Shown one piece after another: positions 21,066 through 23,492 of a stretch of DNA of 64,000 bases (position 1 is the stretch's first letter; the number at the start of each line of letters is the position of its first letter). A program made the position numbers and the translations under genes. The stretch comes from Geothrix edaphica (GTDB lineage: Bacteria > Acidobacteriota > Holophagae > Holophagales > Holophagaceae): assembly GCF_030268045.1 (NCBI RefSeq), contig NZ_BSDC01000004.1, forward strand, positions 62,001 to 126,000, in the 5' to 3' direction. Below the pieces are notes generated by a model. The model saw only the letters and a list, made by a program, of their open reading frames with translations, did no database searches and was not told the origin of the DNA.

Positions 21066-21097
21066 TGGGTTCAAGCCTGTTCGAAGGCGCCGAGATG

Positions 21098-21127
21098 CCA
21101 AAAACCGCCCGGATGGGCGGTTTTTGG
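21098..21127 (+). terminator. Intrinsic terminator after lpdA
   Basis: A perfect 13-bp stem (21098-21110 with 21115-21127) has a GGAT loop. The 3' arm ends in TTTTTGG and is followed by TTT. It ends lpdA on the plus strand and, with A/T runs on both arms, also closes the minus-strand cassette array. Confidence 0.85.
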
Positions 21128-21143
21128 TTTGCGGGAGGGTGAA

Positions 21144-21265
21144 CGGTAACGAATGAAGTTAAGCGGCCGCGCTTGCACCGAGGCGATGAGCGGAGCCCCG
21201 AGATAGAGAAATGATGAGAGCGGAACGCAATGCAGGCAGGGTCCGAATTGAGCGTAGGGTTAGGA
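21144..21265 (-). other. attC-like recombination site 1 (end of cassette 1)
   Basis: This 122-bp site follows the 3' end of the cassette-1 gene on the minus strand. Read on the minus strand, it opens with TCCTAAC (21265-21259, RYYYAAC-like) and an L-type box TCAATTCGG. It ends with CCGCTTAAC and then GTTACCG (21150-21144). The L boxes pair with one unpaired extra base, a hallmark of attC sites. The ends share AACGAATGAAG and a GGGTCCGA.TTGAGCG block with site 2. The terminal box deviates from GTTRRRY, as expected where a cassette joins non-cassette DNA. Confidence 0.7.
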
Positions 21266-21271
21266 CACAGA

Positions 21272-22312
21272 TCAGTTAATCCAGATGGAAAGGTCAGTTA
21301 ATTCACCAATATCTTTTTTGACATTGGCGTGGCCGATCGCGATGCCAACACTAGTAAGTGTTATGTTTTTCATTGCCGAGTTGGACCAAATTTCAAAAAC
21401 ATTGGACATATATGGAGCCCCATTAATCGTGAGATCCCTGATTTCTTCATGATTCATCATTGATTCATTGTGCATAGCAATGAGTTTTGGGATTTCTGAC
21501 TCGGGGATATTGTGATTATCTGCCTCGGTTTTGATTGCTTCTTCATTAATTGTATTAACCTGAATATTATTTTCATTGTTAATACATCTTGAAAAAATTG
21601 GACTATGTCGAGGAATGGTGAATTGTTTGCTTGCAAATTGAGTTTCATCCAAACCCTTCGAAAATAGGCCACCGTACTGATTGCGTATTAATTGTGGGAG
21701 TTCGAGGGAACTGATGCTGATCGCACCGCAGCCAGAATATTCAAGGTGCTGGTAACTTACCTGCCTATTGCTAATAGAACTCGCGAATGGCTTAATATGA
21801 AGATCCAGATATTTATAATATGTTGAAAGACTGTTTATTCCATTATTAATAGTGTATCTAAACAAAAATATAATGCTTAATGCAGCAAGCTGATCGGTTG
21901 TTAATTTGGGGGCAACAGTAAGTGATTCATTTAACACTATTTGCAAAATATCTCTAGTCGGGTGCTTGGACCTATCGATAAGTATATCAATTAGAAGTTC
22001 ACCAATTTCTCTGTCACCGCAACGCGCATACTCTTTCTGAACGCCGAAGAGGGCATGTTGAAAATCTGGGTCCTTGGCTTGTTCTAAACCAATTGGGTTC
22101 TGTTGCTGAAGTTTGTTGATGAATTCCTCTGTGATTTCTTCAGCACGAGACCTGGCGATATCTTTCGCAATCCCAGCAAGACTCATGAAATTTGAATTAT
22201 AAACATCTAGAGCAATTTGACGTGCCTCAATTGCAGATATCCCATGGATGTTTACGGTGCCGGCTTGAATATTTGTGGAGTTATCGCCGCTATTCTGATT
22301 TTGATCTTTCAT
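21272..22312 (-). CDS. Cassette-encoded protein resembling the LPO_1073/Vpar_1526 family, function unknown
   Basis: 346 residues from the ATG at 22312, preceded by GGTGGAG 9 bp upstream; a longer reading from 22414 lacks such a site. It starts with a short polar motif (residues 4-16, QNQNSGDNSTNIQ) followed by TVNIHGIS. A helical segment follows (about 25-60, EARQIALDVYNSNF...). The remainder is mixed and has no recognised catalytic motif or membrane helix. From memory the N-terminus looks like proteins labelled LPO_1073/Vpar_1526, a family of unknown role; this needs a search. It overlaps the upstream small gene by 23 bp. The TGA stop lies 6 bp from the attC box. AT-rich codons mark it as foreign. 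Confidence 0.7.
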   Translation of the reverse strand: MKDQNQNSGDNSTNIQAGTVNIHGISAIEARQIALDVYNSNFMSLAGIAKDIARSRAEEITEEFINKLQQQNPIGLEQAKDPDFQHALFGVQKEYARCGDREIGELLIDILIDRSKHPTRDILQIVLNESLTVAPKLTTDQLAALSIIFLFRYTINNGINSLSTYYKYLDLHIKPFASSISNRQVSYQHLEYSGCGAISISSLELPQLIRNQYGGLFSKGLDETQFASKQFTIPRHSPIFSRCINNENNIQVNTINEEAIKTEADNHNIPESEIPKLIAMHNESMMNHEEIRDLTINGAPYMSNVFEIWSNSAMKNITLTSVGIAIGHANVKKDIGELTDLSIWIN

Positions 22313-22496
22313 TTTTGACATCTCCACCGATATTGATTTGGCCTCGCGATTGAAGATTAACTGAATTTTTTCCGCTTCTTTGGTTTTGTGACCCACTGCC
22401 TGACTTCCTGGCAAGCCACCAACCGATCAATGTAAGAGGAATGGCAATCAAAGCGCCACTGAATAGCCATTCTTTGTTTTTGAGTAACCAAGTCAT
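22290..22496 (-). CDS. Small single-pass membrane protein in cassette 1
   Basis: 68 residues starting MTWLLKNKEWLFSG. One membrane helix lies at about residues 11-28, followed by basic residues (ARKSG), suggesting a cytoplasmic C-terminal part. Residues 36-56 carry QNQRSGKNSVNLQ and then GQINIGGDV, closely matching in pattern the N-terminus of the downstream overlapping gene product. The start lies about 30 bp inside the cassette boundary. The 23-bp overlap with the next gene suggests translational coupling and a joint function. No homologue was recognised. Confidence 0.6.
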   Translation of the reverse strand: MTWLLKNKEWLFSGALIAIPLTLIGWWLARKSGSGSQNQRSGKNSVNLQSRGQINIGGDVKNERSKSE

Positions 22497-22519
22497 ATAC
22501 TGCCTCTTGGGGGAGTAAG

Positions 22520-22643
22520 GCCTAACGAATGAAGCCAACCGGCTCCTCCTGCGCCGAGGCGGCGAACGAAGCCGAGGAAGCGGGAAGAAGAGAAAGAGCG
22601 GAAGGCAATGCTGGCGGGGTCCGAGTTGAGCGAGAGGTTAGCC
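22520..22643 (-). other. attC-like recombination site 2 (junction of cassettes 2 and 1)
   Basis: This 124-bp site follows the cassette-2 gene. On the minus strand it opens with GGCTAAC (22643-22637), which contains the TAA stop of the gene. L boxes CAACTCGG and CCGGTTGG follow, and it ends with GTTAGGC (22526-22520), an exact GTTRRRY core. The inner part is imperfectly palindromic and differs from site 1, while the ends are conserved. A stop codon inside the first attC box is typical of compact cassettes. Confidence 0.75.
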
Positions 22644-23221
22644 AGCGTTGATGATTGCGTTGATAAACCGACTCGCTTTGATTGCTGATTCGACATAGGA
22701 TTCTGCGTCGGCGATGGAGGGTGAAAATTCGGAGGCATGAGCAGCATAATTTCTAACTTTTCGCATGTCACTGATTACGTCAAATAGTTCAGAATAAATC
22801 TCTTTCCGTGTGACATCACTCGTAGAGTGCCAGTGAGCAGCCGCATTTGGAGGAGAACCACTTTGGCCAATACCATTTTTCCTCAGCGATTCTTCAACAG
22901 ACAACCATGCTTCGAGGATGGCTGCCCTTGGCGAAACGATCGCGATTCTGTGGAGTGAATCTTCCAAAGAGGATGGTGTGTTCGGTTCTTGAGGAACTGC
23001 CTTGAGTGATTCGACCCTTCGAATTTCCCTCTCAATCTTGGAAACATCCTCATTGAAATTTGCTTCTAGCTCGTGAAATTTGAGATGAGACATTCTCGAG
23101 AATAGGCCGCGTATCTCTGCCCTGAACAGGTAACTAATCCATACTGCCGCGAAGGGCCATGCTAGGGCTTTTACGAGTTCTACGACGTTCTGAAACATGG
23201 CCAGGCCTCGGAAACGGCTAA
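22526..23221 (-). mobile_element. Integron-type gene cassette 2
   Basis: The predicted cassette runs from TTAGCC at 23221 to the G of the GTTAGGC core at 22526. It holds one gene that fills almost the whole unit and ends inside its own attC. The 5' boundary box on the minus strand is GTTAGCC (23222-23216). AT-rich relative to the flanks. The orientation matches cassette 1 and the ABC operon upstream, so read-through from that operon could express both cassettes. Confidence 0.65.
22638..23198 (-). CDS. Membrane-anchored HEPN-like protein (DUF4145-like), function unknown
   Basis: 186 residues. An N-terminal membrane helix (about 8-26) is followed by a charged helical or coiled-coil segment (about 40-70). 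The C-terminal all-helical region contains DMRKVRNYAAHASEF. Arg149 and His154 form an RX4H motif, the signature of HEPN ribonucleases and of HEPN-like DUF4145 proteins. If active it would be a membrane-tethered RNase or nucleotidyltransferase partner; this is inference. The ATG at 23198 has GAGG 7 bp upstream. The TAA stop is part of the attC box. Strand and composition differ from the chromosomal genes nearby. Confidence 0.65.
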   Translation of the reverse strand: MFQNVVELVKALAWPFAAVWISYLFRAEIRGLFSRMSHLKFHELEANFNEDVSKIEREIRRVESLKAVPQEPNTPSSLEDSLHRIAIVSPRAAILEAWLSVEESLRKNGIGQSGSPPNAAAHWHSTSDVTRKEIYSELFDVISDMRKVRNYAAHASEFSPSIADAESYVESAIKASRFINAIINAG

Positions 23222-23492
23222 CTAGGATTTAGACGATCAGAGTGGAGAGGGATGAAGATCGCCCGACTTGGAAATACTGAGGTGTAACTGCTGATCAGAT
23301 ATCAAGATCATGAGATGAATCGGCAAGCTTAGTCCGTCGAAAAGAGGGATGACCTGAGTCTTCGGCGAATACAAGGACCTTTTGGTTCTTCCCATGAAGA
23401 CACGCTTATCTCGTCTCCCCAAGGGAATCATTTGAACGGGCGAATTCAAGCCCCGAACGGGCGGCCGAGCCCCCAAAGGGCTCACGCCAGCC
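23222..23492. other. Non-coding remnant beside the cassette array
   Basis: This lies between the outer cassette boundary (GGCTAAC at 23216-23222 on the plus strand) and the stop of the ABC-operon gene. It is intermediate in composition. It could be an attI remnant, a decayed attC or ordinary spacer; no integrase or other convincing gene is seen. A small hairpin, GAGCCC/GGGCTC (23467-23483), directly follows the ABC operon on the minus strand and may be a weak terminator. Confidence 0.4.

Follow-up and report, generated by a model that had tools for sequence, protein, structure and literature searches.

A two-cassette array with a predicted attI of its own in Geothrix edaphica, a likely satellite of a chromosomal integron

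Integrons typically carry one attI beside the integrase gene, and integrase-less cassette clusters are regarded as degraded remains (PMC9024848). In sedentary chromosomal integrons of the Vibrio superintegron type, as in Geothrix, intI and attI are found with many near-identical attC sites and with cassettes of unknown function in one orientation. Unlike the Vibrio type, Geothrix has attI platforms without intI that are spread over the chromosome, each with an array of its own. Clusters of attC sites with no integrase nearby (CALINs), which are usually taken as degraded integrons, represent a second described class, and IntegronFinder would place the array reported here in this class even though, unlike a CALIN, it has its own attI (PMC9024848). 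As attI sites other than those of class 1 are not searched by IntegronFinder (PMC9024848), working docking sites among CALINs may have been missed if satellite platforms are used in trans.

Cassette clusters at several conserved loci away from intI/ilvD, similar to those in Geothrix, have been described for Xanthomonas; in the accessible parts of that report no attI is described, whereas Geothrix carries an attI module at many such loci and arrays of up to approximately 31 cassettes (PMC12444791). Insertions into attG sites (Loot et al. 2024, as summarized in PMC12444791) also place cassettes at chromosomal sites off the main integron; according to that summary attG sites are non-classical, whereas the Geothrix satellites have a conserved attI module. 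As described, neither Xanthomonas CALINs nor attG insertion accounts for a conserved attI module at arrays without intI. Finally, in Delta-attI-type cassettes (PMC12901181) the mobile unit ends in attI rather than attC, which may be compared with a 215-bp unit discussed below; these cassettes belong to clinical mobile integrons, and a role of such a unit in spreading attI around a chromosome is no more than a suggestion for Geothrix.

A literature search for integrons in Geothrix returned nothing beyond an unrelated sewage survey, and no report of several attI copies away from intI was found in the open-access literature. A preliminary description of the present locus had assumed that little was known about integrons in the phylum to which Geothrix belongs (Acidobacteriota, class Holophagae), which holds only in part: integrons occur genus-wide in Geothrix, and they are not new to the phylum since attC models for Acidobacteria have already been published (PMC8352920). 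While integrons as such are thus known, attI platforms without intI at orthologous loci look like a new observation.

The window, i.e., the whole 64-kb stretch of DNA that was analyzed (C4:62001-126000 of the G. edaphica genome, G000, 3.16 Mb in 6 contigs), contains an AT-rich block with 36-50% GC in surroundings with approximately 67-75% GC, flanked by the terminator of lpdA and by an ABC operon on the minus strand. The whole array consists of two cassettes in a single orientation on the minus strand, with the following features:

23216-23319, minus strand: predicted attI platform of the putative satellite array (envelope of the attI-module HMM; best-aligned part 23297-23218)
23216-23235, minus strand: predicted attI core CGTCTAA-ATCCTA-G^TTAGCC, with the cut between 23222 and 23221; top rank with the PWM
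22526-23221, minus strand: cassette 1 (696 bp), bounded by the cut point of attI and the G of the attC R' box; G004 and G008 are homologous only up to 23222/23221
22638-23198, minus strand: gene of cassette 1, 186 aa; C-terminal part weakly DUF4145/HEPN-like, below curated cut-offs
22519-22643, minus strand: attC of cassette 1 (model R2, 123.2 bits, E=5.5e-30); R' is GTTAGGC at 22526-22520
21150-22525, minus strand: cassette 2 (1376 bp), delimited by G^TT points in the sequence
22290-22496, minus strand: first gene of cassette 2, small predicted membrane protein, 68 aa when started at an inner ATG; matches PADLOC PDC-M43A weakly
21272-22321, minus strand: second gene of cassette 2, LPO_1073/Vpar_1526 family (NF045477; 320 bits against a cut-off of 45)
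21143-21265, minus strand: attC of cassette 2, the last of the array and apparently decayed (model R2, 98.1 bits, E=3e-23; weak fold)
21103-21127, no strand assigned: lpdA intrinsic terminator, from sequence, immediately past the array on its downstream side; found in G004 and G008 at the same position

The conserved ends reported earlier for the two sites were recovered, with AACGAATGAAG (at 21148 and 22524) and GGGTCCGANTTGAGCG (at 21239 and 22617) each matching exactly twice in the window; the combined repeat pattern was found 14 times in the genome and not once in a reversed control. Read in the orientation of the genes (minus strand), the sites have the form YCCTAAC...CGTTA and each of them (22643-22519 and 21265-21143) follows a cassette gene, as previously stated. 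The stop codon of the 186-aa gene (22638-22640) is indeed located inside an attC box, R''. There is also, as claimed, one exact GTTRRRY core, GTTAGGC at the end of site 22643-22519; the other site has GTTACCG at its end, which would fit a chromosomal origin of this R' half.

A relaxed search and alignment of 30 attC sites of this genome yielded a consensus of approximately 125 bp with a structure of 26 pairs (7 bp of R''/R' and 19 bp of L''/L') in which three bases of the L'' arm stay unpaired. The paired L boxes of the preliminary description were therefore recovered, and its single unpaired base has to be replaced by three. Across the 30 sites, 94.6% of the structure cells were paired, as compared to at most 49% when the structure was slid, and 20 double-change cells were found (5.1 in shuffles), with changes on both sides in 6 pairs; this covariation took the place of minimum free energy (MFE) folding as evidence for the structure. 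The default RNAalifold structure (model R1) missed the R''/R' pairing, and the structure stated above, with the same 30 sites, was used instead for covariance model R2. This model found approximately 51 good attC sites genome-wide, among which both sites of the window were included with 123 and 98 bits. The AT-rich block was confirmed to hold two integron-type gene cassettes, and the interpretation given by the earlier reader was supported: neither of the refuting outcomes that this reader had named, a lack of attC matches with a covariance model or a lack of boundaries at G^TT across relatives, was obtained. A search of the window sites against Rfam gave no family match.

For most attC sites in arrays, the attC shape of the bottom strand represents the minimum-energy fold, with approximately -18 to -30 kcal/mol when this shape is enforced. 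By comparison, the bottom strands of the two window sites reach only -11.6 and -4.1 kcal/mol in the attC shape and prefer other folds, and plain MFE folding of the two sites as free single strands was no better than for shuffles. Because the fold is no better than in shuffles and the attC shape is not the minimum, both sites look like decayed copies in these fold predictions, and excision of the cassettes is therefore doubtful.

The start of the array was compared with attI sites known to be linked to an integrase gene. Upstream of cassette 1 the sequence reads CGTCTAAATCCTAG^TTAGCC, and intI-linked attI sites in other Geothrix read CGTCCAATTCAAAG^TTAGGC. A PWM trained solely on intI-linked attI sites of other species, with none from G000, placed 23235-23216 (minus strand) first in the window with 22.3 bits, as compared to 8.9 bits for the next match, which overlaps the same site. 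An HMM built from 19 attI modules of approximately 140 bp, none of them from the window locus, had its sole match in the 64 kb at the array start (E=3.7e-8, 28.6 bits), with 30 shuffled windows reaching no more than 7.8 bits; intI-linked attI sites of Holophagaceae loci were detected as positive controls and five other stretches of G000 gave no match. The module was also detected at the orthologous locus of G008 (5e-12), G004 (4e-7), G003 (3e-6), G001 (2e-4) and G009 (5e-4), and its upstream element is degenerate in G000 (P=0.11) and clear in G004 and G008. Judging from these sequence matches, the array in the window begins at a predicted attI of its own and is not an orphan. The label CALIN given to it previously is correct in that the 64 kb contain two attC sites, the minimum for a CALIN, but no intI; the array is more than a mere CALIN, however, because of its own attI at the start.

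Comparison with relatives showed that homology breaks at G^TT. G000, G004 and G008 share 78-82% identity over 120 bp of the chromosomal flank, whereas on the cassette side the similarity of G000 to G004 and G008, the two closest genomes, is close to that of shuffled sequence. The block ends named earlier match the positions predicted for G^TT, 23222/23221 and 21150/21149. The platform is common to G000 and five other Geothrix species at the same place, while the cassettes differ in the two closest. At two further loci of G000, D2 (C3:161 kb) and D5 (C1:1268 kb), homology to relatives likewise ends at G^TT. A clean case of presence versus absence was seen at D8 (C1:1086 kb), where approximately 2.6 kb are absent in four relatives; because approximately 270 bp upstream of the attI-like core are also missing in these four, the ends are not exactly at G^TT. 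The empty site looked for in relatives was found only in part: their lpdA loci carry other arrays or unrelated DNA, and the outgroup G011, in which lpdA and the ABC gene are 26 bp apart, is too divergent for a clean empty site. The lpdA-ABC interval (window 21066-23492; L073-L092) was 26 bp at its shortest and 9.8 kb at its longest among 21 Geothrix genomes; some species carry attC arrays there, others unrelated genes.

No relatives of the cassette genes or proteins of the window were found in any other locus compared, the lpdA loci of relatives included. The LPO_1073-type gene of cassette 2, for which the start codon is uncertain (the ORF extends to 22414), stops just ahead of its attC, and its protein has only two weak homologues, which are located on plasmids.

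The absence of an integrase, as described previously, applies to the 64-kb window, where no intI was found, and not to the genome. One intI over the family cut-off is present in G000 on a different contig (C3:557586-558482); a second, intact intI was not found in this genome. The encoded protein ends ...GHKDVATTIIRTYGLL where relatives read ...GHKDVATTMIYTHVLNRGG, and the missing end is located 28 kb away (C3:529294-529229), followed by normal downstream sequence; intI is therefore interrupted just before the codon for the catalytic tyrosine. The closest IntI relatives are those of G. oryzisoli (95%), followed by G. terrae, G. paludis and G. fuzhouensis. Three tyrosine-recombinase-like genes, two of which have NCBIfam support, are found at one end of the insertion, beside the junction. 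The 28-kb insertion spans C3:529229-558482 of G000 (L025 9575-10552, L028 1229-1294), and inspection by eye indicated genes resembling those for a DnaE-type polymerase, a RecD-like helicase and a large restriction-modification protein. Separately, beside intI both G000 (L025 10775-10990) and G001 (L035) carry two attI sites with a 215-bp unit in between; from its sequence, this unit resembles a cassette ending in attI and could be a vehicle for the spread of attI. Tandem pairs of attI modules upstream of intI were also observed in G. oryzisoli, G. paludis and Geothrix sp. SG200 (L172, L174, L176).

Across the genus, IntI was found in 32 of 47 congeneric genomes and R2 attC sites in 45 of 47; R2 sites thin out in other genera of the Holophagaceae. 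The complete genome G007 has approximately 33 attC sites beside intI (557-581 kb), an array of approximately 31 that lacks intI (1528-1547 kb), and small groups at 2005, 2640, 3180 and 3245 kb. In G017 (two contigs), the intI-side array is located at C2 621-637 kb and other arrays at C1 846-859, C1 1577-1596, C2 1195-1197 and C2 1005 kb. In both genomes, arrays of approximately 20-31 attC sites are thus found approximately 1 Mb from intI or on another contig with an attI at the start. Overall, an attI core heads all five G017 arrays and four of six G007 arrays (3245 kb was left out of this test), with two of these nine cores being weaker (3-4 mismatches); no attI was found upstream of the small arrays at G007 2005 kb and D9 of G000, a genome which also carries small one- or two-cassette loci. 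Searches with the attI core pattern gave 31 matches in 17 of 47 genomes (10 beside intI and 21 not) and none in reversed sequence. At 26 of the 30 attI-core loci compared an attC was found within 1.5 kb, and the other four are located either at the end of a contig or next to intI close to such an end. The dispersed attI modules are alike over approximately 140 bp and then have unrelated flanks, and some platforms are orthologous between species.

The block in the window is likely to belong, as one of the satellite arrays, to a distributed chromosomal integron, in which one integrase would act in trans on several attI platforms. According to this explanation, an integron integrase encoded at another place in the genome would bind the double-stranded attI of the chromosomal platform at 23319-23216, beside the lpdA terminator, and bring it together with the attC of circular cassettes, folded from the bottom strand; insertion at G^TT (23222/23221) would then give two cassettes in a single orientation. 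Action of the integrase in trans on satellites, as well as past activity of the attI in the window, is what we infer for this system. Taking into consideration that intI is split before the catalytic tyrosine and that both attC sites look decayed, the array is probably frozen in this strain. The presence of several attI-headed arrays without intI per genome suggests that one integrase serves many capture sites, and we lean slightly towards a general arrangement in Geothrix with one integrase, orthologous attI platforms, turning-over arrays and attI modules spread through the chromosome. Use of satellite attI sites in trans would let a bacterium take up and store cassettes at many points of its chromosome, and many of the clusters classed as CALINs may then be functional docking sites. 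The idea of a distributed integron is testable in Geothrix, for which approximately 50 species have been sequenced and both complete genomes and cultured strains exist.

It is possible, albeit rather unlikely, that the satellite arrays are degraded complete integrons, which once consisted of intI, attI and cassettes and from which intI was cleanly deleted. Such an origin has been proposed for CALINs (PMC9024848), and the homology of the attI module at loci with and without intI, as well as the presence of two intI genes in some Geothrix (G030, G018, G011) and of a broken intI in others (G015, G032), is consistent with it. However, no trace of intI was found in the compared flanks of any dispersed locus, other chromosomal genes adjoin the attI module, and satellites can be as large as the intI-linked array (approximately 31 vs 33 sites in G007).

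Off-target insertion of cassettes into a chance GTT/GAT (attG) site, with no true attI involved, is improbable and disfavored for the window locus, where the attI scores far above chance and the sequence kept in other species is a module of more than 80 bp and not just a core triplet; attG insertion has been documented (Loot et al. 2024, as cited in PMC12444791 and PMC11023631), and the small one- or two-cassette loci of G000 would be compatible with it. Breakage of one original array into pieces by chromosomal rearrangement appears very improbable: even though the G000 assembly of 6 contigs has breaks inside arrays, separate attI-headed arrays are seen in the single-contig G007 and the two-contig G017, the platforms are orthologous across species, and splitting would not provide every fragment with an attI module at its start. 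Dispersed REP- or MITE-like repeats that merely resemble attC, as the lack of significant free-energy folding and of an Rfam match at the window sites might suggest, are in practice refuted by the head-to-tail position of the sites after unrelated genes, the array adjoining an intI over the curated cut-off and the genus-wide co-occurrence, the R and L boxes with extrahelical bases and covariation, and the bottom-strand attC fold being the minimum in most array sites.

In addition to the attC type of the window, a second subclass was observed (L024, L026), in which the stem is CCCAACCG...CGGTTGGG instead of CCCCGCC...GGCGGGG, with compensatory changes. Attachment sites of approximately 60 bp that resemble attC, a type common in proteobacterial cassettes, were also seen beside Geothrix-type attC, namely at L098 (reverse strand, first cassette after an attI-like core) and at L100 near 2790, which, as far as sequence can indicate, suggests that foreign cassettes may have been captured.
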